NCBI RefSeq assembly: GCF_026898115.1
Contig: NZ_CP114036.1
Span: forward strand, 124,001 to 188,000
Origin: Streptomyces sp. S465
GTDB lineage: Bacteria > Actinomycetota > Actinomycetes > Streptomycetales > Streptomycetaceae
DNA: 64,000 nucleotides
Direction of reading: 5' to 3'
The translations under genes and the position numbers were made by a program. Below are positions 44,919 to 63,756 of this stretch, piece after piece (the first letter of the stretch is position 1; every line of letters begins with the position of its first letter). The notes beneath the pieces were generated by a model that had not been told where the DNA came from, did not search any database, and saw only the letters and a list, made by a program, of their open reading frames with translations.

Positions 44919-44921
44919 CCG

Positions 44922-47900
44922 GTGAGCGACCACCAGGACATCGAGGCCACGTACCGGTCGCGGCTGCTGAAGGCGGCCACCGCACTGCGCGAGATGGAAA
45001 AGCGCATCGGACAACTCCAGCGGCGGGACAGCGAACCGGTCGCCGTGATCGGCATGGGCTGCCGCTTCCCCGGCGGCGCCGACCGCCCCGCAAACTACTG
45101 GCGGATGCTGTCGGAGGGAACCGACCCGGTCTCGGCACGCCCCGCCCGCTCCCCAGCGGACGGGGAGGCAGCAGACGCCCCGCTCCCGGGGGCGGAATGG
45201 GGCGCCTTCATCCCGGACACGGACACCTTCGACGCCGCGTTCTTCGGCATCTCCCCACGCGAAGCGGCCCAGATGGACCCCCAGCAGCGGCTGCTCCTCG
45301 AAGTGGCCTGGGAAGCGCTCGAAGACGCCGGAACCGTCCCCCAACAGCTCGCCGGCAGCGACACCGGCGTGTTCATGGGCATGAGCACCAACGACTACCT
45401 CCTGCTCAGCAACGAAGCAGGCGCCCGGGACGGCTACACCGGCACCGGCACCGCCCACTGCTTCGGGCCCGGCCGCCTGTCCTACGTCCTGGGACTGCGC
45501 GGACCGAGCATGGCGATCGACACCGCGTGCTCCTCCTCGCTGGTGGCCATACATCTGGCCATGCGCAGCCTGCGCAGCAAGGAAAGCTCCCTCGCCCTGG
45601 CCGGCGGGGTGAACCTCATCCTCACCGACACCACCACCGAGATGGTGGCCGACCTGCAGGCCCTCTCCCCCGACGGCCGCTGCCGCACCTTCGATGCACA
45701 GGCAGGCGGTTTCGTCCGCGGCGAGGGCTGCGGAGTGGTGATACTCAAACGGCTCTCGGACGCCCTCGCCGCCCGGGACCGGGTACTGGCCGTCCTGCAC
45801 GGCAGCGCGGTCAACTCCGACGGACGGTCGGTGGGGCTGACCGCCCCCAACCTCGCGGCACAGCGCGAGGTACTGCGCACAGCACTGGCCGACGCGCACA
45901 TCTCCGCCTCCGACATCAGCTACGTGGAAACCCACGGCACCGGAACACCGCTGGGCGATCCGATCGAGGTGCAGGCGCTGGCGGACGTCCTGGGCGCCCC
46001 GCGGCCGGACGGGTCCCGCTGCGTCCTCGGGGCGGTGAAGAGCAACATCGGACACCTGGAAGCGGCGGCGGGCATCGCCGGCCTGATCAAAGCCATCCTC
46101 GCGCTGCACCACCAGGAAATACCGGGCAACCTGCACTTCAACACGCTCAATCCCAGAATCTCCCTCGCCGGCACACCGCTTGAGATTCCCACCGGCTCCG
46201 TGCCCTGGCCCGCGGGCGAGCGCCCCCGGCTCGCCGGTGTCAGCTCCTTCGGCATGAGCGGCACCAACGCACACGTCATCCTCGGCGAAGCACCCGAGGC
46301 CGAGCCGGCCGAAGACGCCACGGACACCAATCCCGCCGGGCAGCGCCGGGCGCCGGGCTCCCCGGTGCTGCTGCCGCTGTCCGCCCGCACCCCCGAGGCC
46401 CTGACCGATCTGACACAGGCGTACGCGGACACCCTCGCCCAGACCGCCGACAGCGACCTGCGGTCCCTCGCCTGCACCGCCGCGACCCGGCGCCAGCACC
46501 ACCCGCACCGGCTCGCCGTCGTCGGCACGACCGCGACCGAACTCGCCGACGCACTGCGCACCGCCGCCGCCACGGCGCCCGCCGCCGCCACCAGCCCCAC
46601 ACTCACCTTCGTCTTCTCCGGCCAGGGCACACAGTGGGCCGGCATGGCAGCCGAACTCCGGGCCAAGGAGGCGGTGTTCGCCGCCGCACTCGCCGAGTGC
46701 GACCGGCTGATCGCCCTACACGCCCCCATCTCCGTGCTGGAGGAACTCGATGCGCCCGCTCGCCTGCACCTGACCGACGTCGCCCAACCCGCCATCTTCG
46801 CCGTGCAGGTGGCGCTGGCGGCGCTGCTCGCCTCCTGGGGAGTCGAACCCGACGCCGTGATCGGCCACAGCGTCGGCGAGATCGCGGCCGCTCACCTCTC
46901 CGGCGCACTGGACCTTCCCGAAGCCGCCCGCCTGGCCGTACTGCGCGGCCGGGCCATGGCGCAAGGACATGGGCGCGGCGCGATGTCCGCCGTCGCACTC
47001 GGGCCGGAGGAGACAGCCGCCGAGCTGTCCGCCATGGACACCGGCGTCGTCGTGGCCGCGGTCAACGACGACCATTCCGTCGTACTGTCCGGAGACGCCG
47101 ACGAGCTCGCCGCCGTCGTGGCACACCTGCAACAGCGCGGTGCGCGCTGCCGCGCACTGGACGTCGACTACGCCTTCCACTCACCCCAGATGGCCCCGAT
47201 GGCCGAACAGTTCGCCCACGACCTCGGCCACGTCACCACACAGCCAGGCAGCCGGCCGCTGTACAGCACCGTCCACGGCAAACGCTGCACGGGAGAAGAA
47301 CTGACCGCCGCGTACTGGGCGGACAACATACGGCAACCGGTGCTGTTCGCGGAGGCGGTACGGGCCGCGGGCACCGACGGGCACACCGTCTTCCTCGAAG
47401 TGACACCGCACTCGGTCCTGTCCGGCCACCTCAGCAACCTCCAGCCGCAGGCCACCGTGATCCCCACCCTCAGGCGGAACCGGCCAGAGGTGCCGGCCAT
47501 GCTCACCGCCCTGGGCGCCCTCCACACCAGCGGCTGCCCGGTGGACTTCGCCGCCCTGTACCCCGAACGTCCCCGCCCGGTGACCCTGCCCACCTACCCG
47601 TGGCAGCGCAGACGCCACTGGCTGCACACCCCGCCCGCATCCACCACGGCCACGGCCACTGCTGCTGCCCGGCATCCGCTGCTCGGCACCCGGCTGGACA
47701 TCGCGGGCACCTGGGCGGTGTTCGAGACGCGGTGGGCCGCGGTGGACGAACCCCTGATACACAAAGCCGTGCAGGCGGCAGCGGAAGCGGCCTGGGACGC
47801 CGGGCCGGTGCGGATCGAGGACTTCACCATCCAGGGAACCCCTCCCGCGCCGGGCCGGGTCCAGCTCGTAGTCAGCGGCTCCCCCCAGGACGGTGCCGTG

Positions 47901-48287
47901 GTGACCGTCCACGGCCGGGGGGACGACGGCAGGTGGACACCGTGCGCCACCGCACGCGCCCAGGCGCAGTCCGCCGGCGCCTCATGGCCCCAGGAGCTGC
48001 TCGCCCTGCCCGCCGACCAGCGCGAGGACGCCATCGCCCTGGCCGTACGCACCGACACCGCGACCGTCCTGCAACTGCCCTCGCCCTCCGAGGTCGGGGA
48101 CGATCAGCCGCTGATGGACCTGGGCATGGACTCGCTGATGACCGTACAGCTGCGGCACGAGCTGGCCGCGCGCACAGGGTGGGCGCTCCCCTCGACACTC
48201 GCGTTCGACCACCCCACCCCCCGGGCCATCGCCCGCTACCTGATGGACGTACTCGACGCCGGCGGAATCCAGGAGGACACACCATGA
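44922..48287 (+). CDS. Type I polyketide synthase, KS-AT-(residual DH)-ACP
   Basis: The GTG at 44922 (AGAAGGAGG upstream) lies three bases after the previous stop; 1121 residues. The N-terminal docking coiled coil (YRSRLLKAATALREMEKRIG) leads into the KS (Cys203 in DTACSSS; ETHGTGT; SNIGHLEA). AT has GHSVGE (Ser650) and DYAFHSPQM at 750, usually a malonyl-CoA motif. Between AT and ACP are about 150 residues that start like a DH (HPLLGTRLDI) and contain GPVRIEDFTIQG, but the catalytic His region and the second hot-dog half are gone, so no dehydration is expected. ACP Ser1071 lies in GMDSLMTVQL. There is no thioesterase, reductase or condensation-type release domain. It adds a beta-keto unit. 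The ATGA overlap couples it to the GST gene. Confidence 0.92.
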   Translation: MSDHQDIEATYRSRLLKAATALREMEKRIGQLQRRDSEPVAVIGMGCRFPGGADRPANYWRMLSEGTDPVSARPARSPADGEAADAPLPGAEWGAFIPDTDTFDAAFFGISPREAAQMDPQQRLLLEVAWEALEDAGTVPQQLAGSDTGVFMGMSTNDYLLLSNEAGARDGYTGTGTAHCFGPGRLSYVLGLRGPSMAIDTACSSSLVAIHLAMRSLRSKESSLALAGGVNLILTDTTTEMVADLQALSPDGRCRTFDAQAGGFVRGEGCGVVILKRLSDALAARDRVLAVLHGSAVNSDGRSVGLTAPNLAAQREVLRTALADAHISASDISYVETHGTGTPLGDPIEVQALADVLGAPRPDGSRCVLGAVKSNIGHLEAAAGIAGLIKAILALHHQEIPGNLHFNTLNPRISLAGTPLEIPTGSVPWPAGERPRLAGVSSFGMSGTNAHVILGEAPEAEPAEDATDTNPAGQRRAPGSPVLLPLSARTPEALTDLTQAYADTLAQTADSDLRSLACTAATRRQHHPHRLAVVGTTATELADALRTAAATAPAAATSPTLTFVFSGQGTQWAGMAAELRAKEAVFAAALAECDRLIALHAPISVLEELDAPARLHLTDVAQPAIFAVQVALAALLASWGVEPDAVIGHSVGEIAAAHLSGALDLPEAARLAVLRGRAMAQGHGRGAMSAVALGPEETAAELSAMDTGVVVAAVNDDHSVVLSGDADELAAVVAHLQQRGARCRALDVDYAFHSPQMAPMAEQFAHDLGHVTTQPGSRPLYSTVHGKRCTGEELTAAYWADNIRQPVLFAEAVRAAGTDGHTVFLEVTPHSVLSGHLSNLQPQATVIPTLRRNRPEVPAMLTALGALHTSGCPVDFAALYPERPRPVTLPTYPWQRRRHWLHTPPASTTATATAAARHPLLGTRLDIAGTWAVFETRWAAVDEPLIHKAVQAAAEAAWDAGPVRIEDFTIQGTPPAPGRVQLVVSGSPQDGAVVTVHGRGDDGRWTPCATARAQAQSAGASWPQELLALPADQREDAIALAVRTDTATVLQLPSPSEVGDDQPLMDLGMDSLMTVQLRHELAARTGWALPSTLAFDHPTPRAIARYLMDVLDAGGIQEDTP

Positions 48288-48946
48288 AGGTCTACGGAAC
48301 GACCACCAGCGCCTGCACACACAAGGTCTTGATGGTGCTGGCCGAGAAAGGCTGCGAAGCGGAACTGGTCGAAGTCAGCGTGCTCAAAGGCGAGGACAAG
48401 TCCCCCGAGCACCGGGTCCGCCAGCCCTTCGGGGAGATCCCCGTCCTGGAGGACGACGGCTACCTGCTGTATGAGTCCCGGGCCATCATCCGCTACCTGG
48501 ACCAGCGGCTCCCGGGCCCCTCACTGACCCCCGCCGACCTCCGCTCGCGGGGACTGATGGAGCAGTGGATCAGCATCGAGCAGTCCTACGTCAGTGGTCC
48601 GGTATGGGAACTGGTCAGGTCAGGTCCCGTCTACGACGTAATCCGCAACAGCCCGGGAGCCGCGCTGATGCCGCCCCCGCCGGACGCGGCGGCCATCACC
48701 GCGGCCCGAGCCGAACTCGCCCAGGCCTTCGACGTCGCCGACACCCGTCTGGCCGAACACCCCTACCTGGCCGGCCCCGACTTCTCCCTCGCCGAGATCA
48801 CCTGGCTGCCCTACCTCCAGTACCTGTTCGCCTCCGGCGGCGGCGACCTGGTCACCCAACGCCCCCACCTGGCCCGATGGTGGCAGCAGATCAGCAACCG
48901 CCCCACCTGGCAGGCCGTCGGCAAGGTACTGGACCGGCCCGAATGA
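48284..48946 (+). CDS. Glutathione S-transferase-like protein (zeta / maleylacetoacetate isomerase-like)
   Basis: The ATG at 48284 overlaps the stop of the third synthase; 220 residues. The N-terminal thioredoxin fold has the zeta-like active site TTTSACTHKVLMVLAEKG (Ser-x-Cys) and the gamma-Glu-binding segment GEIPVLEDDGYLLYESRAII with the cis-Pro and the ES pair. The C-terminal helical domain follows (LAEHPYLAGPDFSLAEITWL). Zeta GSTs isomerise cis double bonds of maleylacetoacetate. Actinomycetes use mycothiol rather than glutathione, so the thiol cofactor is open. In this operon it may isomerise a double bond or add a thiol to the polyketide. Confidence 0.85.
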   Translation: MKVYGTTTSACTHKVLMVLAEKGCEAELVEVSVLKGEDKSPEHRVRQPFGEIPVLEDDGYLLYESRAIIRYLDQRLPGPSLTPADLRSRGLMEQWISIEQSYVSGPVWELVRSGPVYDVIRNSPGAALMPPPPDAAAITAARAELAQAFDVADTRLAEHPYLAGPDFSLAEITWLPYLQYLFASGGGDLVTQRPHLARWWQQISNRPTWQAVGKVLDRPE

Positions 48947-50142
48947 ACACCTACGACCTGTGGAGCGACCACACCAGCGCCGACCCGCTGCCCACCCTCG
49001 CCCGGATGCGTTCCGACGCACCCGCCATACGACTGTTCAACCCATACCAGGGCGCACCTGAGTGGTGGGTGACCCGGTACGACGACGTGGCCGCCCTCCT
49101 CCACGACCCGCGCTTCAGCAGAGACAAACGCAAACTCTCCGAGCAGGCCCGCGCCCGCTACTTCCGGGTGACCGAACTGGACCAGCTCGACCAGCACGTG
49201 CTCTACTCCGACCCTCCCGAACACACCCGACTCCGCTCCCTGGTCGGCAAAGCCTTCACCCCACGCCGCATCGCCGACCTGACACCGCGCATCGAAGAGG
49301 CCGTCGAAAGGCTGCTGGACCAGGCAGAACAGCACGACACCACCGACCTGCTGGAGACCCTCGCCTTCCGGCTCCCCCTCGCCGTCCTCACCGAACTGAT
49401 CGGCATCCCCGAAGAAGACCGGGAGAAGTTCCGCGAGTGGACGGGCATCCTGGTGGCCCCCGCCGACTTCACCGCCCTGGCACGGATGGCCACCGAGTTC
49501 CAGGAGTACCTGGAACGGTTCCTCGCCCAGCGCCGCACCAGCCCCCGCCCAGACCTCACCAGCGCGCTGATCGCAGCCGAGGAGAGCGGCGAGCGGCTGA
49601 CCCCGGCCGAGCTGATGAGCATGGTCTTCCTCCTCATCGCGGCGGGCTTCGAAACCACCGGCAACCTCATCGGCAACAGCGTATGGGCCCTCCTGACACA
49701 CCCCGACCAGCTCAGGCGCCTGCGCGCCGACCCCGCTCTGACCGGCTCCGCGGTCGAAGAAGTCCTGCGCTACTGCCCACCGGTGAAAAACACCACCGGT
49801 GCCTTCCCCCTGGAAGACACCGAATTTTGCGGAGTGACCATCCCGGCGGAAGAAATGATCGTCGGCTCCCTCCTCTCCGCACACCACGACCCCACCCACT
49901 TCCCCGACCCCGGGCGCTTCGACATCACCCGCACACCCAACCGCCACCTCGCCTTCGGCCACGGCATCCACTTCTGCCTGGGCGCCGCACTCGCCCGCCT
50001 GGAAACCACCATCACCCTCAACGCACTCCTGCGCCGCTACCCCCACCTCACCCTCGCCGCCGACCCCGACACACTGCGCTGGAAAGACGGCGTATTCGTC
50101 CGAGGCATGGAAACCCTGCCCGTCACCTGGGGAGACCGGTAA
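48943..50142 (+). CDS. Cytochrome P450
   Basis: The ATG at 48943 overlaps the GST stop (ATGA); 399 residues, a normal bacterial P450 size. The I-helix reads FLLIAAGFETTGNLIGNSVW with AGxET at the oxygen-activation site. The K-helix ExxR is EEVLR. The heme loop is AFGHGIHFCLGAALARLE with the Cys ligand. It resembles the CYP105/CYP107 group that hydroxylates or epoxidises Streptomyces polyketides. It needs ferredoxin and reductase partners encoded elsewhere. Coupling to the synthase operon makes it a tailoring enzyme. Confidence 0.95.
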   Translation: MNTYDLWSDHTSADPLPTLARMRSDAPAIRLFNPYQGAPEWWVTRYDDVAALLHDPRFSRDKRKLSEQARARYFRVTELDQLDQHVLYSDPPEHTRLRSLVGKAFTPRRIADLTPRIEEAVERLLDQAEQHDTTDLLETLAFRLPLAVLTELIGIPEEDREKFREWTGILVAPADFTALARMATEFQEYLERFLAQRRTSPRPDLTSALIAAEESGERLTPAELMSMVFLLIAAGFETTGNLIGNSVWALLTHPDQLRRLRADPALTGSAVEEVLRYCPPVKNTTGAFPLEDTEFCGVTIPAEEMIVGSLLSAHHDPTHFPDPGRFDITRTPNRHLAFGHGIHFCLGAALARLETTITLNALLRRYPHLTLAADPDTLRWKDGVFVRGMETLPVTWGDR

Positions 50143-54862: not shown

Positions 54863-55612
54863 TCAGTTGGCCCAGCGGGCGATGCCCAGCGCCGCCGTGC
54901 GCACGGCCGGAGTGAGCCGGTCGAGGGCGGCTCGAGAATGCGCCACGATGCCGAGCGCGGCCAGGACCCGGCCGTCCAGGCCGAGCACCGGGGCGGCGAC
55001 GGACACGGCTCCCAAGGTCATCTCCTCGTGGGAGTAGGCGACTTTGGACTTGCGGACCTCCGCCAGTGCGGCCGCGAGCCGGCCGGGCTGGGTGATCGTG
55101 TGCGGGGTCATCCGGGTCAGCCCCGCTTCGGTGACGGAACTGAACAGCTCCTCGCCGGAAAAGGCCAGGATGGCCTTCCCGACCCCGGTCGCGTGCAGGG
55201 GGAGGCGGCCACCGACGTGGGTCAGTGTGGGAACGGCCTTGGTGCTGGAGATCTTCTCGATGCAGAGGGCCTGGGTGCCCTCCAGGACCGTCAGCTGAAC
55301 GTTCTCCTGTGTGGCCTGGTACAGATCATGCATGTAGGGCAGGGCCGCTTCTCTCAGCCCCCGCTGCTGGGGGGCCAGCGCGCCGATCGTCCATAGGCGC
55401 ATCCCGATGTGGTAGCGGCCGTCGTCAAGCCGCTCCAGGCCGCCCCAGGTGCGGAGTTCGCTGATCAGACGGCGCGCGGTGGAGACCGGCAGGCCGCTTC
55501 GCGTGGCCACTTCGGTGAGGGTCAACGCGGGGTGGGCCACGTCGAAGGTGTCCAGGACGGCGAGCAGTCGCCGGGAAACGGTCTGACCGGGGGTGTTGGT
55601 TCTGCCTGCCAC
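54863..55612 (-). CDS. IclR family transcriptional regulator
   Basis: The GTG at 55610-55612 gives 249 residues. The N-terminal winged helix reads QTVSRRLLAVLDTFDVAHPA followed by LTLTEVATRSGLPVSTARRL and ISELRTWGGLERLDDGRYHI. The effector domain has the IclR motifs GGRLPLHATGVGKAILAF and SVAAPVLGLDGRVLAALGI. It is divergent from operon B, and ATTGCCACTGG repeats lie between them. IclR proteins commonly control aromatic catabolic operons in response to a pathway metabolite, so it is the likely regulator of operon B. Confidence 0.93.
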   Translation of the reverse strand: MAGRTNTPGQTVSRRLLAVLDTFDVAHPALTLTEVATRSGLPVSTARRLISELRTWGGLERLDDGRYHIGMRLWTIGALAPQQRGLREAALPYMHDLYQATQENVQLTVLEGTQALCIEKISSTKAVPTLTHVGGRLPLHATGVGKAILAFSGEELFSSVTEAGLTRMTPHTITQPGRLAAALAEVRKSKVAYSHEEMTLGAVSVAAPVLGLDGRVLAALGIVAHSRAALDRLTPAVRTAALGIARWAN

Positions 55613-55773: not shown

Positions 55774-55789
55774 GTGGGAGAACCAATGA
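55730..55789 (+). CDS. Leader ORF of 19 codons coupled to the operon B permease
   Basis: ATG at 55730 follows a very strong ribosome binding site (AAGGAGG at 55715-55721, spacing eight). The frame reads MSASDNGARVRIATGWENQ and stops with TGA at 55787-55789, overlapping the permease ATG at 55786 (ATGA). The peptide has no known domain. The strong start and exact overlap suggest a translated leader that couples or tunes translation of the permease. An alternative is that it is the remnant 3' end of a former first gene with a coincidental start. Confidence 0.5.
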   Translation: MSASDNGARVRIATGWENQ

Positions 55790-57048
55790 CTGGATTCTGG
55801 ACACGCCAGGGCATCGTCCCGAATCTCCGCTGGGGGTTCGTGGCACTCACCTTGTTCATGATCGGCGACGGGATCGAGTCCGGCTTCCTGTCTCCCTACC
55901 TGGCCGAGCACGGCTTCGGCTCGGGCCAGATGTCCCTGCTGTGGAGCGTCTACGGGTTCGTCGTCGCCGTCGCGGCCTGGCTCTCCGGCGCCCTTGCCGA
56001 AGCCTTCGGCCCTCGGCGGGTGATGCTCGCCGGATTCGGCATCTGGGTCGTTTTCGAGATCGCGTTCCTGGCCGCGCTCGCCCAGGAGAACTTCACCTTC
56101 ATGCTGATCAGCTTCGGCATACGCGGCCTGGGATACCCCCTGTTCTCGTACGCGTTCCTCGTCTGGCTGGCCATGGACACGCCGGAAGAGGTGATGGGCA
56201 AGGCGGTCGGGTGGTACTGGTTCTTCTTCGTGCTCGGCCTCGGAGTGGTCAGCTCCTACTACGCGGGCGCCGTCATCCCGCTCATCGGTGAGTTCGCCAC
56301 CCTCGCCTCGTCGCTGGTCTTCATCGGGATCGGCGGGATCATGCTGGCTTTCCTGGTCAAGGCCCGCCGGCCGGATCCGGGCGGCCTCCAGACCAGCCTG
56401 CGCTCGATTCTCGGCGCGTTCACCATCGTCGTCGAACGGCCGAAGGTGGGAATCGGCGGGATCGTGCGCGTGATCAACACATTGGGCTTCTACGCGTTCG
56501 TCGTCTTCCTGAGCACCTTCATGGTCCACGATGTCGGGCTGTCCACCTCCGAGTGGCAGACCGTGTGGGGGACGCTGACGCTGACCAACATCATCGCCAA
56601 CGTGGTGTTCGGGTACGTCGCCGACAAGATCGGCCGCATCCGCACCGTGGCATGGTTCGGCGGACTTCTCTGCGCGGTGAGCGTTCCCGCCTTCTACTAT
56701 GTGCCGAAACTGCTCGGCTCGGGCTTCTGGGCCATCCTCGTGGTCGGCATCGTGTACGGCGCCGGGCTCTCCGGTTACGTCCCGCTGTCCGCGATCATGC
56801 CCGCGCTGGCTCCGCACCGCATCGGCGGCGCCATCGCCATCCTCAACCTCGGTGCGGGTGTGAGCCAGTTCCTGGGCCCTGTGGTGGCCGGACTGGTGAC
56901 GCCGCTCGGAGTCGCCGGAACGCTGTGGGTCCTTGCCGGCATCCACCTCGTCGGCATGGCACTCACCTACTGTCTGCGCGACCGCCCCTCACCCCCGAAG
57001 GAGAAGCCCGCCATGGACCGCGAACTGGCCGAGAGGACCGCGCTGTGA
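55786..57048 (+). CDS. MFS transporter, RbtT/DalT/CsbX (polyol permease) type
   Basis: The ATG at 55786 has GGGAG five to six bases upstream and is preferred over GTG at 55774; it gives 420 residues with about twelve membrane helices. The subfamily pattern is LTLFMIGDGIESGFLSPYLA in helix 1, AAWLSGALAEAFGPRRVMLA, GIRGLGYPLFSYAFLVWLAM and AVGWYWFFFVLGLGVVSSYY, which matches the ribitol/arabitol permease group including CsbX. This suggests import of a polyol or cyclitol-like compound. It is the first large gene of operon B and its stop overlaps the next start (57045). Confidence 0.88.
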   Translation: MTGFWTRQGIVPNLRWGFVALTLFMIGDGIESGFLSPYLAEHGFGSGQMSLLWSVYGFVVAVAAWLSGALAEAFGPRRVMLAGFGIWVVFEIAFLAALAQENFTFMLISFGIRGLGYPLFSYAFLVWLAMDTPEEVMGKAVGWYWFFFVLGLGVVSSYYAGAVIPLIGEFATLASSLVFIGIGGIMLAFLVKARRPDPGGLQTSLRSILGAFTIVVERPKVGIGGIVRVINTLGFYAFVVFLSTFMVHDVGLSTSEWQTVWGTLTLTNIIANVVFGYVADKIGRIRTVAWFGGLLCAVSVPAFYYVPKLLGSGFWAILVVGIVYGAGLSGYVPLSAIMPALAPHRIGGAIAILNLGAGVSQFLGPVVAGLVTPLGVAGTLWVLAGIHLVGMALTYCLRDRPSPPKEKPAMDRELAERTAL

Positions 57049-57791
57049 CCACCCTTCCCACCATCGTTCTCGTCCACGGGATGTGGCACGGCTCCTGGGC
57101 CTGGGAACGGGTCGCGACGCTGCTCGAAGCGGCCGGCCATCCCTGTGTCCAGGTCACGTTGCCGGGCAAGGACCGTTCACCGGGCGATCCGACATTCCAG
57201 GGACACTGCGACCATCTCGTCCGCGTCCTCGCCGATGTGCGCGGTGACGTCGTACTCGTCGGGCATTCCTATTCCGGAGCTCTGCTGACCGAGGTCGGTG
57301 ACGCCCCCCAGGTGCGGGCCATGGTCTTCGTGAGCGCGTTCTGTCTGGAACCCGGGGAGTCGGTCGCATCCGTCAACGACGCCGAGGCGGGCTCGCAGGC
57401 GGGCAAGGACGACATCCGTCAGGTCGGTGACTACCTGGTCATCGATCCCGACATCGCGCGGAACGCCTTCTACCACGACTGCACGCCGGCCGATGCGACC
57501 AGGGCCGTCGAGCGCCTCACACCCGAACACGCCGGCACGCGGGCGGCGGTCGTCTCCAACGCGGCCTGGCGCACCGTCCCCTCGCACTACGTGGTGTGCA
57601 CCCTGGACCGGGCCTGCACACCGGAGGTCCAGCGGATGATGGCGAGCCGGGTGGAATCGTCGAGTGAGCTGGTCTCGAGCCACTCCCCGATGTTGTCGAT
57701 GCCGCAGGCCCTGGCGCGCACGATCACCGAGTTCGCGTCGCGGCACCGGGGAACGGCCCAGCGGAGCCACGCGTCGGAGCGCATCTCGTGA
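57045..57791 (+). CDS. Alpha/beta hydrolase (small esterase, methylesterase/hydroxynitrile-lyase-like)
   Basis: The GTG at 57045 overlaps the permease stop; 248 residues. It begins TIVLVHGMWHGSWAWERVAT, the HGxxHGxWxW motif of the plant methylesterase / hydroxynitrile lyase-like clan, also common in actinomycetes. The nucleophile elbow is VVLVGHSYSGALLTEV (Ser in GHSYSG) and a late His lies in LVSSHSPMLSMPQALA, the SHSPMLSxP pattern of this group. It probably hydrolyses an ester or cleaves a C-C or C-O bond in the imported compound. Its exact reaction is unknown. Confidence 0.85.
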   Translation: MTTLPTIVLVHGMWHGSWAWERVATLLEAAGHPCVQVTLPGKDRSPGDPTFQGHCDHLVRVLADVRGDVVLVGHSYSGALLTEVGDAPQVRAMVFVSAFCLEPGESVASVNDAEAGSQAGKDDIRQVGDYLVIDPDIARNAFYHDCTPADATRAVERLTPEHAGTRAAVVSNAAWRTVPSHYVVCTLDRACTPEVQRMMASRVESSSELVSSHSPMLSMPQALARTITEFASRHRGTAQRSHASERIS

Positions 57792-58540
57792 CCGCGCCCG
57801 TCGCGATCGTGACCGGCGGCGCCGGCGGGATGGGCACGGCCATCGCCACCGTCCTGCTCGACGACGGCTTCCGGGTCGCGCTGCTCGACCGCCGCGGGGC
57901 GCAGGAAGCCGCCGGCCGGCTGGCCGGCACCGGCGAGGTGCTCGGTGTCGAGGCCGATGTCTCCGACGAGGAGTCGGTCCGGGCCGCCATCGACCACGTG
58001 GACATGGTGTGGGGCCGCGTCGACGCCCTGGTCAACAACGCCGGTATCGAGCCGCCGCATGCGGTGCGGAGCATGGAGTCGGACACCTGGCGGGCGACGC
58101 TGGAGGTCAACCTGACCGGACCGGCACTCATGATCAAACATTGTGTGCCCCTGTGGCGGCGCCAGGGCGGCGGCCGGGTGGTCTCCATCGGCTCACGTGT
58201 GTGGCTCGGTGGTGGTGTGACACCCGCGTATGCCGCGTCGAAGGCGGGGATCGTCGGCCTGACCCGCACGGCGTGCCATGAGCTCGGCCCGCTCGGGGTC
58301 ACCGTCAACGTCGTCGCACCGAGCTTCGTGGACACCTCGTTCAACACCCAGAAGGCCGACGCCGGGGTTCTCCAGGCCCGTGTCGACCGATTCACCGAGG
58401 CCTCGCCACTGGGCAGGCTCGTGGAGCCGGTGGACGTCGCGCACGCCGTGGCGTTCCTGGTGTCGGAGCGAGCCCGGAACATCACCGGTGAAGTGATTCA
58501 CGTGGCCGCCGGGACACAACTGGCGCCGACGATCCAATGA
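57788..58540 (+). CDS. Short-chain dehydrogenase/reductase
   Basis: The GTG at 57788 overlaps the hydrolase stop; 250 residues. Motifs: VAIVTGGAGGMGTAIATVLL (TGxxxGxG), ALLDRRGAQEAA with Asp selecting NAD(H), VDALVNNAGIEPPHAVRSME, VVSIGSRVWLGGGVTPAYAA then SKAGIVGLTR (Ser, Tyr, Lys), and the C-terminal ARNITGEVIHVAAG. It is an NAD-dependent alcohol dehydrogenase acting on a small hydroxylated ring or chain. In operon B it would oxidise a hydroxyl of the imported substrate. Confidence 0.9.
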   Translation: MTAPVAIVTGGAGGMGTAIATVLLDDGFRVALLDRRGAQEAAGRLAGTGEVLGVEADVSDEESVRAAIDHVDMVWGRVDALVNNAGIEPPHAVRSMESDTWRATLEVNLTGPALMIKHCVPLWRRQGGGRVVSIGSRVWLGGGVTPAYAASKAGIVGLTRTACHELGPLGVTVNVVAPSFVDTSFNTQKADAGVLQARVDRFTEASPLGRLVEPVDVAHAVAFLVSERARNITGEVIHVAAGTQLAPTIQ

Positions 58541-58560
58541 ACATCAAGGAGGTTCTGAGC

Positions 58561-59184
58561 GTGTCGACACGTCTCGAAGACAAACTGGCACTGCGCGAGT
58601 TGGTCGAGAACTGGGCCGTGTGGCGCGACGCCGCGGACTGGGAGCGTTTCGCCACGGTGTGGCATCCGACCGAGGGATGGATGAGCGCCACATGGTTCCA
58701 GGGACCGGCGGCCGAGTTCATCGACGTCAGCCGGGCGGGTTTCGACAGCGGCGTGAGCATTCTGCACTTCCTGGGGGGACACACCGCCGACATCAACGGC
58801 GACCGGGCCATCGCCCAGACGAAGATGACGATCAACCAGCGCGCGAGCATCGACGGGGTCGAGGTCGACGTGGTCTGCGTCGGCCGCTTCTACGACTTCT
58901 GCGGCCGGTACGACGGTCAGTGGAAGGTCGTCCGCCGGCAACCGATCTACGAGAAGGACCGGCTCGATCCGGTCGACCCGTCCACGCGGCTGGAACTCGA
59001 CCCGGAGCTGCTCGGCCGGTTCCCCATCGGCTATCGCCACCTGGGCTATCTGCAGACCAAGGCCGGGTTCACGGTCAAGACCGGATTGCCCGGTCTGACC
59101 GGGGAGGCGGTGCAGCGCCTGTACGACGAGGGTTCGAAGTGGCTGGCGGGATCAGCCACCCCGGGCCACCCCGGCGAAGAGTGA
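58561..59184 (+). CDS. SnoaL/NTF2-like protein (SnoaL_4 type)
   Basis: GTG at 58561 is preferred because AAGGAGG (58546-58552) lies eight bases before it; the ATG at 58537 would put that box inside the gene. The result is 207 residues. The cone-fold text reads LRELVENWAVWRDAADWERF, VWHPTEGWMSATWFQGPAAE and GGHTADINGDRAIAQTKMTI, followed by WKVVRRQPIYEKDRLDPVDP. Members act as dehydratases, cyclases, isomerases or hydroxylases on ring compounds, and similar proteins serve as ring-hydroxylating dioxygenase beta subunits. In operon B a dehydratase or isomerase role before ring aromatisation is plausible. Confidence 0.8.
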   Translation: MSTRLEDKLALRELVENWAVWRDAADWERFATVWHPTEGWMSATWFQGPAAEFIDVSRAGFDSGVSILHFLGGHTADINGDRAIAQTKMTINQRASIDGVEVDVVCVGRFYDFCGRYDGQWKVVRRQPIYEKDRLDPVDPSTRLELDPELLGRFPIGYRHLGYLQTKAGFTVKTGLPGLTGEAVQRLYDEGSKWLAGSATPGHPGEE

Positions 59185-59194
59185 GGGCATCGAG

Positions 59195-60025
59195 ATGACC
59201 ACGGTATTCCTGAACTGCAGCGCCAACACGCTGCGTACCGCCGACCTGCCCACCCGGGTGGCCGCGGCGGCCAGGGCCGGGTTCGCCGGCATCGGCCTGC
59301 GGGTGAGCGACTATCTCCACGCGAACATGCCCGACGGGCAGATCCGCGATCTGCTCGACCAACACGGCCTGCGGGTCCTTGAGATGGAGCACAACTGGGA
59401 CTGGGCCAAGGGCGAGGATCCGGTGGAGGAAGCCATGTTCTCCTTCGCCGACCGGATCGGCATCCGCCACCTCAACGTCCCGATGTTCGCCGAGCATCCG
59501 TTGCCGGAACTCGTGGAGCCGTTCGGGGCGTTGTGCGACCGCGCCGCCGAGCACGGCGTTCTGGTCGGGTTCGAGTTCCTCCCCTACAGCCATGTCCGCA
59601 CGCTGGACGAGGCGTGGCGGGTGGTCTCGGCGGCCAACCGGCCGAACGGCGGAATCACCCTCGACCTGTGGCACTGGTTCCGTTCCGGCGCCAGGACCCA
59701 GGATCTCGCCGGCATTCCACCCTCCGCGATCACCACCCTTCAGCTGTGCGACGTGCTCCCCCAGCCCGGCCCCGATCTGACCGACGAGGCCCGGCACCGG
59801 CGGCTGCTCCCCGGCCGGGGAGCCGGGGACACACTCGGCGTGCTCCGCGCTCTGCGGGAACACGGTGTCAACGCGCCGGTCTCGGTGGAGGTCTTCTCCG
59901 ACGATCTCGACGCCCGGCCCGCCGCGGAAGCGGCCCGGCTCGCCTTCGACGCGGGCGCCCTCACACTCGGCCGCGCCGGTGTCACCGCACCGTCCTGGAC
60001 CACCACGCTCGAGGAGGGTCGATGA
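59195..60025 (+). CDS. Sugar phosphate isomerase/epimerase-like TIM-barrel protein
   Basis: This 276-residue xylose-isomerase-like TIM-barrel (AP endonuclease family 2) protein has metal-ligand-like segments VLEMEHNWDWAKGEDPVEEA, LVGFEFLPYSHVRTLDEAWR (Glu), GGITLDLWHWFRSG (Asp, His) and SVEVFSDDLDARPAAEAARL (Glu). The family includes 2-keto-myo-inositol dehydratase (IolE), inosose isomerase and 3-dehydroshikimate dehydratase. A dehydratase or isomerase that moves a cyclic polyol ketone toward an aromatic ring would fit operon B. The stop overlaps the dioxygenase start (ATGA at 60022). Confidence 0.85.
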   Translation: MTTVFLNCSANTLRTADLPTRVAAAARAGFAGIGLRVSDYLHANMPDGQIRDLLDQHGLRVLEMEHNWDWAKGEDPVEEAMFSFADRIGIRHLNVPMFAEHPLPELVEPFGALCDRAAEHGVLVGFEFLPYSHVRTLDEAWRVVSAANRPNGGITLDLWHWFRSGARTQDLAGIPPSAITTLQLCDVLPQPGPDLTDEARHRRLLPGRGAGDTLGVLRALREHGVNAPVSVEVFSDDLDARPAAEAARLAFDAGALTLGRAGVTAPSWTTTLEEGR

Positions 60026-60903
60026 CCACCCCGACCACCGGCTTCTCCGAGGAAGCTTCGGTCGAGATCGTCACGGAGAGCTTCGCCGGCACTCCGGACG
60101 CACGGCTGAAACAGGTCATGACGAGCCTGGTCGAGCACCTGCACGCTTTCGTGAAGGACATCGAGCCCACCGAGGCGGAATGGCAACAAGCGATCGACTT
60201 CCTCACCGCGATCGGGCACATGTGCGACGACACCCGCCAGGAGTTCGTCCTGCTGTCCGATGTGCTGGGGGTGTCGATGCTGGTCGACGCGATCAACAAC
60301 CGTAGATCGGCGGCCGCCACCGACACCACCGTCCTCGGCCCGTTCCACATGGTCGACTCACCGCCCCGCGAGCTGGGCGCGAACATCTCACTCGACGGCG
60401 AGGGTGAGCCCTGTGTGTTCGCCGGACAGGTCCGGTCGTCCGACGGAACGCCGCTGCCCGGAGCCCGGGTGGACGTGTGGCAGGCCAACGGGGCCGGCTT
60501 CTACGACGTCCAGCAACCCGGGACACAGCCCGAGCGCAACCTCCGGGGGCTGTTCACCGCTGACGACGACGGCCGTTTCTGGTTGCGGACCGTGGTCCCC
60601 CGCTACTACCCGATCCCGGACGACGGACCGGTCGGCCGACTGCTCACCGCCACCAAGCGCCACCCCAACCGTCCCGCGCACATCCACGTCATCGCCGAAG
60701 CCGACGGGCACGCCCCCATCACCACCCACGTCTTCGTCGAAGGCAGCCCGTATCTGGACTCCGACACGGTGTTCGGGGTGAAGGAGTCGCTGATCAGGCC
60801 GGTCACAACCGTTGACGATCCACTCCGCGCCGAGCGGTACGGTGTCGCCAGCCCCTTCCGGCTGCTGACGTTCGACGTCGTCCTGGACCGGGTACGGCCA
60901 TGA
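60022..60903 (+). CDS. Hydroxyquinol 1,2-dioxygenase (intradiol)
   Basis: The ATG at 60022 gives 293 residues, the length of hydroxyquinol dioxygenases. The N-terminal helical linker (WQQAIDFLTAIGHMCDDTRQ, then EFVLLSDVLGVSMLVDAIN) is followed by the catalytic domain with TDTTVLGPFHMVDSPPRELG and GARVDVWQANGAGFYDVQQP. The Fe(III) ligands are Tyr161 (FYDVQ), Tyr195/196 (RYYPIPDDGPVG), and His220 and His222 (RPAHIHVIAE). It opens 1,2,4-trihydroxybenzene to maleylacetate. The next gene encodes the reductase for that product. Confidence 0.95.
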   Translation: MTTPTTGFSEEASVEIVTESFAGTPDARLKQVMTSLVEHLHAFVKDIEPTEAEWQQAIDFLTAIGHMCDDTRQEFVLLSDVLGVSMLVDAINNRRSAAATDTTVLGPFHMVDSPPRELGANISLDGEGEPCVFAGQVRSSDGTPLPGARVDVWQANGAGFYDVQQPGTQPERNLRGLFTADDDGRFWLRTVVPRYYPIPDDGPVGRLLTATKRHPNRPAHIHVIAEADGHAPITTHVFVEGSPYLDSDTVFGVKESLIRPVTTVDDPLRAERYGVASPFRLLTFDVVLDRVRP

Positions 60904-61961
60904 GCCACCACTTCATCCACGAGAACCGTCCAGGCCGGGTCGTCTTCGCGGCGGGCGCGAGAGCACGGCTGCCCGAGGAGACCGACCGACTCGGTCTGCA
61001 CCGGCTCATCGTGGTGTGCACACCCGGACACGCGGACCTCGCCGCTGAACTGGCGGCCCCGCTCGGCGACCGGATCGCCGATCTGCACCCGCACGCCACG
61101 ATGCACGTGCCGGCACCCGTCGCGGCGGAAACCGTGGCGCGAGCGCGGGAGATCGGCGCGGACGGTTGCCTCGCGATCGGCGGCGGTTCCGCGATCGGTC
61201 TGGCGAAGGCCGTCGCGAAGGACACCGGCCTGCCGATCGTCGCTGTGCCGACCACCTACGCCGGATCGGAGATGACGCCGATCTGGGGCCTGACCACCGA
61301 TGGCCGGAAGACCACCGGACGGGACCCCCGCGTCCTGCCGTCCGTTGTGGTCTACGACCCGGAACTGACCGCGACGCTCCCGTCCGCGCTGTCGGTGACC
61401 AGTGGCGTGAACGCCCTCGCACACGCCGCGGAGGCCCTGTACGCGCCCGACCGTTCACCGATCCACACGCTGATGGCGGCGGAAGCGGCGCGGGCCCTGG
61501 CCGACGCCCTGCCTCGTGTGGTCGCCGATCCGCACGACATCGACGCCCGCTCCGACGCCCTGTACGGGGCCTGGCTCGCCGGCAGCGTACTGGGCGCGAC
61601 CACGATGTCCTTGCACCACAAGCTCTGCCACATTCTCGGCGGCACCTTCAACCTGCCGCACGCCGAGACCCACACCGCGGTCCTCCCCCACGTTCTCGCC
61701 TTCAACCTCCCAGCGGCGCCGGCGGCGCGGACCGCACTGGAGACGGCACTCTACACCACCGAGCCGGCTTCCCAGCTGTTCCACCTTGCGCGGAGCCTCG
61801 GCGCCGACATGTCACTCACGGCGCTGGGCATGCCCGAGGACGGTGTGGAGACCGTGGTCTCCCAAGCACTCGCCCATCCCTACGCCAATCCCAGGCTCAT
61901 CACGGAGGCCGACATCCGCCGCATCCTCGGCCGCGCGCTCACCGGCGCCGCACCCGCATAG
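60900..61961 (+). CDS. Maleylacetate reductase
   Basis: The ATG at 60900 overlaps the dioxygenase stop; 353 residues. It belongs to the iron-alcohol-dehydrogenase-like group with maleylacetate reductase features: GRVVFAAGARARLPEETDRL, CLAIGGGSAIGLAKAVAKDT (cofactor), IVAVPTTYAGSEMTPIWGLT, and SLHHKLCHILGGTFNLPHAE with the conserved His pair and Cys. It reduces maleylacetate to 3-oxoadipate with NAD(P)H, completing the hydroxyquinol branch. 3-Oxoadipate then needs thiolase and CoA-transferase encoded elsewhere. It is the last tightly coupled gene of operon B. Confidence 0.95.
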   Translation: MSHHFIHENRPGRVVFAAGARARLPEETDRLGLHRLIVVCTPGHADLAAELAAPLGDRIADLHPHATMHVPAPVAAETVARAREIGADGCLAIGGGSAIGLAKAVAKDTGLPIVAVPTTYAGSEMTPIWGLTTDGRKTTGRDPRVLPSVVVYDPELTATLPSALSVTSGVNALAHAAEALYAPDRSPIHTLMAAEAARALADALPRVVADPHDIDARSDALYGAWLAGSVLGATTMSLHHKLCHILGGTFNLPHAETHTAVLPHVLAFNLPAAPAARTALETALYTTEPASQLFHLARSLGADMSLTALGMPEDGVETVVSQALAHPYANPRLITEADIRRILGRALTGAAPA

Positions 61962-62103
61962 CAGCGCACTCACCCGGTCCTCGTTTCGCTCACCATCTGG
62001 ACCGGGTTCGTCATCCTCGCTCCGACTGCCAACGCACGGTATGGGCCAAGCAAGCCGCCCCGCCACACAAGAGCCGGCTCCGGCCGGCCAAGAAAGGACA
62101 CTC

Positions 62104-62856
62104 ATGCGCCTGCACGACAAGGTAGCCCTGATCACCGGTGCCTCCAGCGGCATGGGGCGTGCCACCGCCGAAACGTTCAGTCGTGAGGGCGCGACCGTTG
62201 TCATCGCCGACATCGCCGACGAGGACGGCGCCTTGGTCGTCGACGGGATCCGGACCGCCGGCGGGCAGGCCCGTTACCTGCACCTCGATGTCACGGACGA
62301 GAGCTCATGGACCGCCGCGATCGAGGTGATCCTCGCGGAGTTCGGACGGCTCGACATCCTGGTCAACAACGCGGGGATCAGCGGCACCTTCGACCCCGAC
62401 CTGACCAGCACCCGGTTCTTCGACCAGCTCATGCAGGTCAACGCGAAGGGTGTGTTCCTCGGCATCAAGCACGGCGCCGCAGCCATGGCCCGCTCCGGCG
62501 GCGGCTCGATCGTCAACCTGTCCTCCATCTCGGCCTCCATCGGCCAGATCGGCGTGCACCTGGGCTACGGCGCGTCAAAGGCCGCCGTGAAGTCGATGAC
62601 GACCACCGCGGCGGTGCACTACGCCGATGCCGGGATCCGCGTCAACGCGGTCGCACCGGGCATGCTGCCGGCGATGCGCACCTCCCGCGGCTCCGCGGAC
62701 CCGGTGTGGCGGGCCAAGCAGATCGACGGGGTGCCGATGAAGCGGGCCGGGGAGGTACGGGAGGTCGCCGACGCCGTCCTCTTCCTCGCCAGCGAAGAGG
62801 CCTCGTATATCACCGGGGTTGAGATTCTGGTCGACGGCGGACTGACCGCCGTCTGA
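62104..62856 (+). CDS. Short-chain dehydrogenase/reductase
   Basis: The ATG at 62104 (AAAGGA upstream) gives 250 residues. The motifs are VALITGASSGMGRATAETFS, VVIADIADEDGALVVDGIR (Asp, NAD-preferring), LDILVNNAGISGTFDPDLTS, IVNLSSISASIGQIGVHLGY, and GYGASKAAVKSMTTTAAVHY, ending with the family's ITGVEILVDGGLTAV. It lies 142 bases after maleylacetate reductase and is probably on the same transcript or a linked one. Close relatives oxidise cyclic diols to aromatic or keto products, such as LinC-type dehydrogenases. An aromatising dehydrogenase role in operon B is possible. Confidence 0.9.
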   Translation: MRLHDKVALITGASSGMGRATAETFSREGATVVIADIADEDGALVVDGIRTAGGQARYLHLDVTDESSWTAAIEVILAEFGRLDILVNNAGISGTFDPDLTSTRFFDQLMQVNAKGVFLGIKHGAAAMARSGGGSIVNLSSISASIGQIGVHLGYGASKAAVKSMTTTAAVHYADAGIRVNAVAPGMLPAMRTSRGSADPVWRAKQIDGVPMKRAGEVREVADAVLFLASEEASYITGVEILVDGGLTAV

Positions 62857-63075
62857 CGCTCGCCGTCCAGGCCGATCACACCGGACGCCCTGCCGAGGCA
62901 GTCCGCATCACCGCGCGCCGTCCGACCGGTTTGCCGGTTCAGCAAAGTACGTTGCCGCCATGGACACATGCGCGCAGGCTGCATCCAGAAAGTGCCGGCT
63001 CATCACCCGGAACCCCTCCGGCTCGAGCGGTACGTCAGAAGCGGCAATTGCGTCACAGAACAGAGGATGCGGCAG

Positions 63076-63756
63076 ATGGAAAACCGCCACGTCGTGATCA
63101 TTCCGATCGAGATCGACGAAGAGAAGGAAAGCGCTTATCTCGACGCCTGGCAGGGCGCTGCGGACGTGATGGCGGCTCAACCCGGTTTCATCCGGACGTA
63201 TATGTTCCGCACGATCGTTCCGGGGAGCACATTCCATCTCGTCAACGTGGCGGAATGGGAGTCCACCGCTCACTGGGAAGAGGCGATGAACGTCTGCCCG
63301 ATGATGGGACAGCAGATAGCCGTCGCCCATGCCTCCAACTACGAGGCGATCCGGACGGTCCTGCCCGCCACGAAGCAGAGCCTGGACTCCGGCGGCGGTC
63401 ACACGCCCGCTGAGCTGTCTCCTGCCGAGGCGTATCGCCGCCTCGCGGACGGGGAACTCACTCTGGTCGATGTCCGCGAGGACGATGAATGGGCAGCGCG
63501 TCACCCGACCGGCGCCGTGCACGCCGCGCTCAGCACGTTGCCGGCCGCGCTGTCGGATCTGCCTGACGGTCCACTGGCCTTCGTATGCCGCACGGGCGCA
63601 CGCAGCGTGCAGGGCGGCGCGCTGGCGATCCGCGCAGGCCGGTCCTCCGTCCACAGCGTGGCGGGCGGCCTTGAGGCATGGGAAGCGGCAGGGCTGCCGG
63701 TCACCACCCCCGACCGCGCGGACGCGGTGAACAACGGCCTTGGGAAACACCGGTAG
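63076..63756 (+). CDS. ABM (antibiotic biosynthesis monooxygenase) - rhodanese fusion protein
   Basis: ATG at 63076 is preferred: GAGG at 63063-63066 gives a nine-base spacing, whereas it abuts the ATG at 63067. Of 226 residues, about 1-100 form an ABM-like dimeric ferredoxin fold (HVVIIPIEIDEEKESAYLDA, ADVMAAQPGFIRTYMFRTIV, FHLVNVAEWESTAHWEEAMN). A rhodanese domain follows (LSPAEAYRRLADGELTLVDV, active loop FVCRTGARS with the Cys nucleophile, VHSVAGGLEAWEAAGLPV). ABM proteins of the YgiN kind oxidise quinols. A quinol-handling role beside a hydroxyquinol pathway is plausible. The rhodanese partner is unusual. Confidence 0.82.
   Translation: MENRHVVIIPIEIDEEKESAYLDAWQGAADVMAAQPGFIRTYMFRTIVPGSTFHLVNVAEWESTAHWEEAMNVCPMMGQQIAVAHASNYEAIRTVLPATKQSLDSGGGHTPAELSPAEAYRRLADGELTLVDVREDDEWAARHPTGAVHAALSTLPAALSDLPDGPLAFVCRTGARSVQGGALAIRAGRSSVHSVAGGLEAWEAAGLPVTTPDRADAVNNGLGKHR

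Follow-up and report, generated by a model that had tools for sequence, protein, structure and literature searches.

Gene organisation of the operon

This work concerns a catabolic operon of Streptomyces sp. S465 that lies in a stretch of 64,000 nt (NZ_CP114036.1, positions 124,001-188,000; assembly GCF_026898115.1). This stretch is part of the large contig, the genome measuring 9.66 Mb, and is referred to here, at its full length, as the window. In this operon, the genes for a lower pathway of the hydroxyquinol type are joined to those for a permease, a hydrolase, two short-chain dehydrogenases/reductases (SDRs), a TIM barrel protein and a SnoaL-like protein, and we propose that it may lead a ring acid of the quinate or shikimate type into hydroxyquinol without a hydroxylase. 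The operon proteins were typed using the Pfam and NCBIfam profiles, which was followed by PDB sequence searches.

Seven genes on the forward strand form the body of the operon, and their neighbours overlap by 4 bp or are separated by 10 bp. The first encodes a major facilitator superfamily permease of the RbtT/DalT/CsbX family (55786-57048; NCBIfam TIGR00897), whose open reading frame opens at 55774, the gene caller placing the start at 55786. It is followed by an alpha/beta hydrolase, a putative esterase (57045-57791; Pfam Abhydrolase_6), the dehydrogenase SDR1 (57788-58540; Pfam adh_short_C2), a SnoaL_4 protein of the NTF2-fold family that is a candidate AGDC1/PPP2-like decarboxylase (58537-59184), and a xylose-isomerase-like TIM barrel protein (AP_endonuc_2; 59195-60025) that is QuiC/Lmo2234-like and a putative ring dehydratase. 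The last two genes, whose reading frames overlap by 4 bp, encode an intradiol dioxygenase of the hydroxyquinol 1,2-dioxygenase type (HQD, 60022-60903; Pfam Dioxygenase_N and Dioxygenase_C) and an iron-containing alcohol dehydrogenase of the maleylacetate reductase type (MAR, 60900-61961; Pfam Fe-ADH). The dehydrogenase SDR2 (62104-62856, forward strand), which has alicyclic-alcohol dehydrogenases among its nearest relatives, begins after a spacing of 142 bp in the window, and a gene for an IclR-family regulator (54863-55612, reverse strand; Pfam IclR_C and HTH_IclR) diverges from the operon. The seven-gene operon, SDR2 and the divergent IclR gene are a genuine unit. The initial annotation had joined the permease, both SDRs, the TIM barrel, the SnoaL protein, the esterase, the dioxygenase and the reductase in one operon, and all of them were found in their places.

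Conservation and linkage across genomes

With the dioxygenase as the query, 80 loci of other genomes (L005-L084) were fetched and then searched for the operon proteins. Further loci were found independently with the SnoaL protein, in draws from the Pseudonocardiaceae, the class and the phylum, and among plasmid records. Being found by the dioxygenase, L005-L084 are biased for HQD linkage, and the SnoaL-based sets are the fair test; L134, L136 and L164-L167, whose contigs are as long as those of earlier loci, were taken as duplicates and dropped from the counts.

The nine-gene set IclR-permease-hydrolase-SDR1-SnoaL-TIM-HQD-MAR-SDR2 was present in 12 distinct genomes, i.e., the window, L005-L013 (Streptomyces, Amycolatopsis and Prauserella), L135 and the Embleya plasmid L175; the Pseudonocardia cluster L050 is broken off by a contig end. 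The closest dioxygenase among the named genomes was that of Streptomyces hygroscopicus (95%), and the IclR proteins of the other 11 complete operons shared 83-95% identity with that of the window. SDR2 also adjoins MAR in L005 and L007, and one or two genes lie between them in the other nine complete operons. In eight of the 12 complete operons, this interval holds a permease similar to aromatic-acid:H+ symporters (AAHS-like), whose best families are PcaK and TIGR00895, with scores under their cut-offs, and which also occurs in L024, L037, L133 and L138.

In the SnoaL-based sets, HQD was located within about 10 kb of the SnoaL gene in 12 of the 25 Pseudonocardiaceae loci. Among the plasmids, 25 records had a match and ten loci were examined, eight of which had HQD at this distance. 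The two misses were Bradyrhizobium L172 and Cupriavidus L176, where neither MAR nor the intradiol dioxygenase accompanies SnoaL. The wider class and phylum draws gave SnoaL matches at an E-value of 1e-15 in five of 394 and three of 396 genomes, respectively, with the S465 genome counted in both, and, among their four loci with at least 53% identity, HQD was near in one (L102; not in L099, L100 or L101). The linkage expected by chance is about 1%, which is a rough estimate for a small number of these genes spread over some 8 Mb of genome. SnoaL was found with MAR and an intradiol dioxygenase on the plasmids of Shinella, Sinorhizobium, Caballeronia and Agrobacterium. Overall, the SnoaL-dioxygenase-reductase linkage is seen in Actinomycetota, Alphaproteobacteria and Betaproteobacteria, on chromosomes as well as plasmids. 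In the distant clusters, the dioxygenase was 43-54% and the reductase 41-51% identical to those of the window.

Lower pathway

The better supported steps are those of the lower pathway, for which the last two genes of the operon are predicted to encode a hydroxyquinol-type dioxygenase and a maleylacetate reductase. The top PDB matches of the dioxygenase were hydroxyquinol and 6-chlorohydroxyquinol dioxygenases and PnpC (8r2x, E-value 7e-93; 3n9t, PnpC; 1tmx, hydroxyquinol 1,2-dioxygenase). The best matches of MAR were 3jzd, an iron-containing alcohol dehydrogenase, and then the maleylacetate reductases 3hl0 (E-value 1e-95) and 3w5s (2e-92). Both proteins resemble the pairs that stand beside FAD monooxygenases in L015, L018 and L045 (66-72% identity for the dioxygenase and 58-59% for MAR; the family of the monooxygenase was checked for L015 alone among these three). 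No such neighbour was seen beside the pairs in L025 and L056. If the pathway proposed below is true, the operon also cautions against taking HQD-MAR pairs as proof that a phenol is hydroxylated.

The initial annotation had remarked that the operon has no aromatic hydroxylase, and this absence extends to the nine conserved genes in all 12 genomes. It concerns the upper pathway and leaves the lower one standing. A second MAR/HQD-type pair is present in the same genome at about 7.43 Mb (L105:5834-7755), with 48% and 46% identity; its neighbour is an IclR-type gene, and a Rieske-type oxygenase is encoded at a distance of about 4-5 kb, both of which were recognised by eye.

It is conceivable that a hydroxylase encoded elsewhere supplies hydroxyquinol from a phenolic substrate and that the SDRs, the TIM barrel and the SnoaL protein serve something unrelated. 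The phenolic contexts of some relatives, which are described below, would suit such a division, and our genome search did not cover every possible hydroxylase. However, the nine-gene set has been kept without a hydroxylase in 12 genomes and, because the second HQD-MAR pair of the genome has its own IclR-type gene, the pair in the window looks dedicated; we regard this explanation as highly improbable.

The SnoaL-like protein

The PDB matches of the SnoaL protein were led by PPP2 (7jmr, E-value 3.6e-29) and AGDC1 (6w54, 6e-26), which are gallate/protocatechuate decarboxylases of fungi, with scytalone dehydratase following at 1e-3. PMC7862292 names W35, R39, D40, T60, W61, H86, Y150 and Q192 as the substrate-holding and catalytic residues of AGDC1, and W26, R30, D31, T52, W53, H77, Y138 and Q173 of the window protein align with all eight. 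The full set was found in 41 of the 45 aligned SnoaL sequences, including that of the window. In this count, the duplicates L136 and L134 stand in for the identical copies L008 and L011, and the set does not include L138 and L150, in which no full-length frame was called. The four sequences without the full set were L012 and L050 (both short at their start), L151 (T60S) and L106, a 35% paralogue from the same genome (L106:9623-10234, position 7464688) that is without four of the eight residues. Judging by this residue set, the protein is a candidate hydroxybenzoate-type decarboxylase of the AGDC1/PPP2 kind. According to PMC7862292, homologues that were earlier proposed in lactic bacteria seem to be without the catalytic side chains, which makes a bacterial branch with the full residue set noteworthy. 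An AlphaFold model of the protein had a pLDDT of 50 and was not used.

We also considered the SnoaL protein as a plain dehydratase. In an alignment inspected by eye, scytalone dehydratase has two Trp, the Asp and the His in common with the set, Tyr and Leu replace R39 and T60, and Arg30 of the window protein aligns with Tyr30 of scytalone dehydratase, which is an active-site residue in that enzyme. This weak match and the Arg in place of Tyr30 led us to demote the dehydratase assignment.

The SnoaL protein also occurs outside of operons of this type. In L140, L142, L143, L145, L147 and L149, it is paired with a divergent IclR gene and neither HQD nor MAR is close by; in these loci, it is possibly a stand-alone hydroxybenzoate decarboxylase with its own regulator. 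In L101, its neighbours are a Rieske oxygenase with a VanA domain, a reductase and a gene of the PadR family, and, in L102, a Rieske oxygenase, a reductase, an aldehyde dehydrogenase, MAR and HQD are found with it. Because the VanA-type and PadR-type contexts suit the decarboxylation of hydroxybenzoates, the loss of CO2 is favoured over that of water. On the Rhodococcus plasmid L168 (3619-18464), IclR, SnoaL, MAR and the dioxygenase are found with P450, aminomethyltransferase-family and tetrahydrofolate genes, and this set looks like an O-demethylation that feeds the SnoaL-HQD-MAR core. The initial annotation had named induction by phenolic substrates alone as a result that would speak against its proposal, and a supply of this core from phenolic compounds appears to exist in the relatives L168 and L102. 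Operon-type SDRs and the TIM barrel were found in neither of these two loci, although L102 has an SDR with 33-35% identity at a distance of about 6 kb. Gene names in the relatives without a family call were assigned by eye, and many transporter and dehydrogenase names are those of the best family below its cut-off.

In the SnoaL tree, L101, L102 and L168 cluster together within the HQD-linked clade. The linkage to HQD changed about eight times on the tree (at least five changes are forced by the starred branches) compared to 15 times with shuffled labels; the count is approximate since L177 is labelled as being without HQD, though HQD/MAR matches lie about 5-7 kb away, and AGDC1, a very long branch, was counted in the same way. 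Two observations on gene neighbourhoods belong here. The Geodermatophilus locus L015 (5835-12051) carries an FAD monooxygenase, a protein similar to syringate/vanillate O-demethylases (below the cut-offs), HQD and MAR, and can be seen as a flavin-dependent counterpart to the SnoaL core. On an Agrobacterium plasmid (L174:2921-12152), gentisate-type genes (a cupin and maleylpyruvate/maleylacetoacetate isomerases) are next to SnoaL, MAR and the dioxygenase.

That one SnoaL clade serves both hydroaromatic-type clusters and those of the demethylation type (L101, L102 and L168) makes a shared substrate attractive, for which protocatechuate and gallate are candidates. Either the SnoaL protein would then work oxidatively, or pyrogallol and its product would be handled by the dioxygenase and the reductase. 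In the first case, the SDRs and the TIM barrel would make protocatechuate from a hydroaromatic acid, which the SnoaL protein would oxidise with O2 and no organic cofactor to hydroxyquinol, replacing a flavin-dependent decarboxylating hydroxylase. The gene order in L015, where the demethylase-like protein and the FAD monooxygenase precede HQD-MAR in the position that SnoaL holds elsewhere, agrees with this. An oxidative decarboxylation of protocatechuate to hydroxyquinol has also been suggested for fungi (PMC10406623). However, AGDC1 and PPP2 are non-oxidative and yield catechol from protocatechuate (PMC7862292), no electron donor was identified, and pcaGH is present in the S465 genome as well as on the S. 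meliloti plasmid, so such a route would not be needed. We consider a protocatechuate intermediate to be unlikely.

In the second case, two ring oxidations of an acid of the shikimate/quinate type, or the demethylation of syringate in the relatives, would give gallate, from which the SnoaL protein would form pyrogallol for the HQD- and MAR-like enzymes to process along with its product. Gallate decarboxylase is one of the two nearest characterised relatives of the SnoaL protein, the demethylation-type genes next to SnoaL in L101, L102 and L168 suit syringyl compounds, and the balance of C, H and O closes for gallate as well. The lower pair speaks against it, being close to hydroxyquinol dioxygenases and maleylacetate reductases and resembling the pairs beside FAD monooxygenases in L015, L018 and L045. 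Moreover, we know of no reductase of the pyrogallol cleavage product. This alternative appears to be very doubtful.

TIM barrel protein

The initial annotation had described the TIM barrel as IolE-like; Lmo2234 and QuiC proved to be nearer. Its only NCBIfam match was QuiC (E-value 4e-20), at 72 bits against a cut-off of 1200, the model describing a two-domain protein of 635 residues. The PDB matches placed Listeria Lmo2234 (2g0w, E-value 4e-51) first, followed by QuiC (5hmq) and IolI, and a Foldseek search with the AlphaFold model (pLDDT 85) likewise ranked 2g0w and then QuiC 5hmq ahead of IolI (1i60) and IolE. The predicted metal ligands E127, D157, Q183 and E232 correspond to the Glu-Asp-Gln-Glu of QuiC, IolI having His at the Gln site, and the Gln was present in all 16 aligned orthologues. 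No match to the IolE family TIGR04379 was found at an E-value of 1e-3, and, with Gln instead of His and IolE low in the fold ranking, the IolE assignment was demoted. Sequence and model agree in a protein that is QuiC-like and a putative dehydratase, without a closer assignment.

This type of TIM barrel has relatives in hydroaromatic-acid operons. The Listeria gene, which is Lmo2234 (identical over the 257 residues compared), is surrounded by a LysR-type gene, an old-yellow-enzyme-type flavoprotein and a shikimate dehydrogenase above its curated cut-off, and a 30% relative in Ligilactobacillus stands with a shikimate dehydrogenase and AroD. Relatives in sphingomonads and Rhodococcus opacus have different contexts, which are unclear.

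Transport, hydrolysis and dehydrogenation

The permease passed the TIGR00897 (RbtT/DalT/CsbX) cut-off, with 473 bits compared to 375. The PDB relatives of the hydrolase were SABP2, polyneuridine-aldehyde esterase, a pyrethroid hydrolase and hydroxynitrile lyases. Both genes were present in 13 clusters (the 12 complete operons and L132) and both were missing at an E-value of 1e-15 in six (L014, L024, L037, L133, L137 and L138), although a 30% relative of the hydrolase is present in L024; L050 and the clusters of Pseudomonadota are left out of this count. Since the two are present or missing together, an ester substrate is plausible, and we infer that the permease and the hydrolase serve an ester or another conjugate and the AAHS-like permease the free acid.

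For both SDRs, the best 25 NCBIfam families were considered. SDR1 is FabG/alcohol-dehydrogenase-like and reached no curated cut-off among the best 25 of 234 families, its PDB matches being mostly of the FabG type; an Asp that ends strand beta-2 and the YxxxK motif, both read by eye, suggest that it uses NAD. SDR2 matched cyclohexanol dehydrogenase (4ure, E-value 1.4e-45) as the third of 11 PDB matches and ChcB2 hydroxycyclohexanecarboxylate dehydrogenase at 9e-59, under the cut-off. The substrates of the SDRs could not be read from their PDB relatives. The curated family nearest to the IclR regulator was PcaR/PcaU/PobR (TIGR02431, 142 bits compared to a cut-off of 285).

Variant clusters keep SnoaL, HQD and MAR, and it is the permease and the dehydrogenase that change. 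L137, drawn from the same family as L006, combines an MHS permease that resembles shikimate transporters with an AroE-like dehydrogenase in which a Shikimate_dh_N domain is recognised. In Mycolicibacterium L014, the permease is likewise similar to shikimate transporters, and SDR1 is 51% identical. Caballeronia L173 has an SDR, a TIM barrel and an MHS permease that scores nearly equally as a shikimate and a ProP transporter. The permeases of L014, L137 and L173 were nearest to the metabolite/H+ and shikimate transporter families, under their cut-offs. The Sinorhizobium loci L169 and L171 combine a TIM barrel with a type II dehydroquinase, which in L169 is above three curated cut-offs and just below a fourth and in L171 is one by annotation. 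L037 and L133 have the AAHS-like permease, a Gfo/Idh dehydrogenase and a different hydrolase, and L138 keeps the AAHS-like permease, SDR1 and SDR2 without the RbtT permease and the hydrolase. In L132, SDR1, SnoaL, TIM and SDR2 stand without HQD or MAR nearby, these being found in L133 of the same genome, which is to be expected if SnoaL, TIM and SDR make the substrate of HQD. Together, these variant permeases and enzymes, most of which are named from families below the cut-off, point to a hydroaromatic acid.

The initial annotation had proposed that a cyclic polyol or its ester is imported, oxidised, dehydrated and aromatised. For a neutral cyclitol such as quercitol, this would mean one oxidation and two dehydrations, the first by the TIM barrel and the second by the SnoaL protein acting like scytalone dehydratase or LinA, and the balance closes (C6H12O5 - 2 H - 2 H2O = C6H6O3). 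RbtT-family permeases are polyol carriers, and the Gfo/Idh protein of L037, which has a 90% relative in L133, is inositol-dehydrogenase-like, below the cut-off. In addition, AGDC1-type enzymes have the His-Asp dyad in common with LinA and scytalone dehydratase (PMC7862292). The SnoaL protein itself argues for something else: the E-values of its AGDC1 and PPP2 matches are lower than that of scytalone dehydratase by over 20 orders of magnitude, and Arg occupies the place of Tyr30. The relatives of the operon, moreover, have acid-transporter-like permeases and enzymes of the shikimate/quinate type. A neutral cyclitol is thus distinctly unlikely. The general outline of the proposal and the ester fit our results; the neutral cyclitol with its two dehydrations does not, considering the decarboxylase residues of SnoaL, the QuiC-like TIM barrel and the acid-type relatives.

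Neighbouring genes

Downstream of SDR2, a gene for a fusion of an ABM domain and a rhodanese (62968-63756) had been counted in the operon by the initial annotation, which extended it over 55786-63756. No homologue was detected in the 80 dioxygenase-fetched loci or in the SnoaL-based and plasmid loci of other genomes, and this gene was left out. Three further rhodanese-type matches follow it beyond the window (L107:2775-4810 region), and the fusion gene is probably part of an adjacent group of sulfurtransferases. Its ABM domain, which is not conserved, is the only monooxygenase-type domain near the operon; as a candidate for the missing hydroxylase, it was rejected on the same two observations.

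Beside SDR2 and mostly convergent with it, other genomes carry a conserved alpha/beta hydrolase similar to epoxide hydrolases and haloalkane dehalogenases (L006:14065-14934; also L007-L013, L050, L132, L135 and L175). In the window, L107 and L005, no such gene was detected close to the operon, the window having just distant relatives of it at 20.0 and 26.7 kb. At 33038-50142, the window contains large open reading frames of 2180, 1843 and 1121 residues, the last of which reads by eye as a polyketide synthase and is followed by glutathione-S-transferase-like and P450-like proteins (translation, by eye). Because the operon is conserved in other genera, this region is probably unrelated to it.

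Proposed pathway

Taken together, the operon may funnel a ring acid of the quinate or shikimate type, here probably taken up as an ester or a neutral conjugate, into hydroxyquinol without a hydroxylase, a reading drawn from sequence comparison whose probability we place a little below an even chance. The RbtT-type permease would import the ester or neutral conjugate, from which the alpha/beta hydrolase would free the ring acid. SDR1 and SDR2 would oxidise ring hydroxyls with NAD, the QuiC-like TIM barrel would remove water and the AGDC1-like SnoaL protein would remove CO2, giving hydroxyquinol. In the better supported steps, the dioxygenase would open hydroxyquinol to maleylacetate and MAR would reduce this to 3-oxoadipate. 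The order of the upper steps and the exact substrate are inferred. For a quinate-type acid, the balance closes: C7H12O6 minus 4 H (the two SDRs), H2O (TIM) and CO2 (SnoaL) gives C6H6O3, a matter of arithmetic and textbook chemistry that has no bearing on the order of the steps. Should quinate retain its oxygens at C1, C3 and C4, these would form the 1,2,4 pattern of hydroxyquinol, and no oxygenase would be needed before the ring is cleaved. As the SnoaL protein matches AGDC1 and PPP2 and keeps all eight residues, it is more likely that CO2 is released from a carboxylated precursor than that water is removed a second time.

Several observations weigh against this pathway. The potassium site of AGDC1 is not kept, R87 and E88 being replaced by F78 and L79, and Y146 is R134 in the window protein, so the chemistry of SnoaL may differ; because of the potassium site, we call the protein AGDC1-like and not a strict member of the AGDC1 group. 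SnoaL is also found with IclR alone or with vanillate-demethylase-like genes and is therefore not specific to hydroaromatic substrates. The permease is of a polyol-carrying family, one dehydrogenase rather than two was recognised in L014, L037, L133 and L137, and the TIM barrels of the Pseudomonadota clusters are only 31-32% identical to that of the window, one of them having no NCBIfam match. Finally, the genome has a separate AroE-like gene, a two-domain QuiC-like protein and, above the cut-off, protocatechuate 3,4-dioxygenase (pcaGH) elsewhere. With this separate QuiC/protocatechuate route, quinate would have two routes, which makes quinate itself uncertain. For the same genes, the standard quinate route was rejected as the plain identity of the operon.

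A broader proposal, which takes in the relatives and which we hold tentatively and with somewhat more doubt, is that a cofactor-free enzyme of the NTF2 fold makes hydroxyquinol from a carboxylated precursor, replacing the flavin hydroxylases and thus connecting 3-oxoadipate with hydroaromatic acids and, in the case of some relatives, with methoxylated aromatics by a route that has no ring hydroxylase. This could proceed via dehydrogenation, dehydration and decarboxylation or via an oxidative decarboxylation of protocatechuate. The lower pathway is already known, and the upper one is, to our reading, new: a literature search by titles and the beginnings of abstracts, outside of which most subscription journals lay, returned no bacterial route from a cyclitol or quinate to hydroxyquinol. 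If the proposal is true, hydroxyquinol, which is usually formed via flavin hydroxylases, would gain an entry from alicyclic plant acids without a ring hydroxylase, and the AGDC1-type cofactor-free decarboxylases, which were characterised in fungi, would gain a bacterial branch with a defined role in a pathway. The operon is also a source of a candidate decarboxylase that is independent of prenylated flavin.

Comparison with known systems

Among the known systems, the hydroxyquinol lower pathway of resorcinol and nitrophenol catabolism has the same two enzymes, encoded by adjacent genes; the operon differs in that its conserved set holds no flavin or other hydroxylase and that its upper genes encode SDRs, a TIM barrel, SnoaL, a hydrolase and an RbtT permease. 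With the fungal, cofactor-independent AGDC1 and PPP2, the SnoaL protein has clear homology and all of the ligand and catalytic residues in common, although it is bacterial, lies within a hydroxyquinol operon and has Phe and Leu at the potassium site and Arg for Y146. Inositol catabolism (IolG, IolE and IolI) resembles the operon in the TIM superfamily and in the Gfo/Idh dehydrogenase of L037 and L133, but no match to IolB, IolC or IolD was found among the families listed (for the SDRs, the best 25 each). The catabolism of quinate and shikimate (QuiC, QsuB and AsbF, with Lmo2234 as an uncharacterised relative) has in common with it the Glu-Asp-Gln-Glu TIM barrel, whose relatives adjoin AroE-, AroD- and shikimate-transporter-like genes, whereas the operon leads to hydroxyquinol genes and not to protocatechuate 3,4-dioxygenase.

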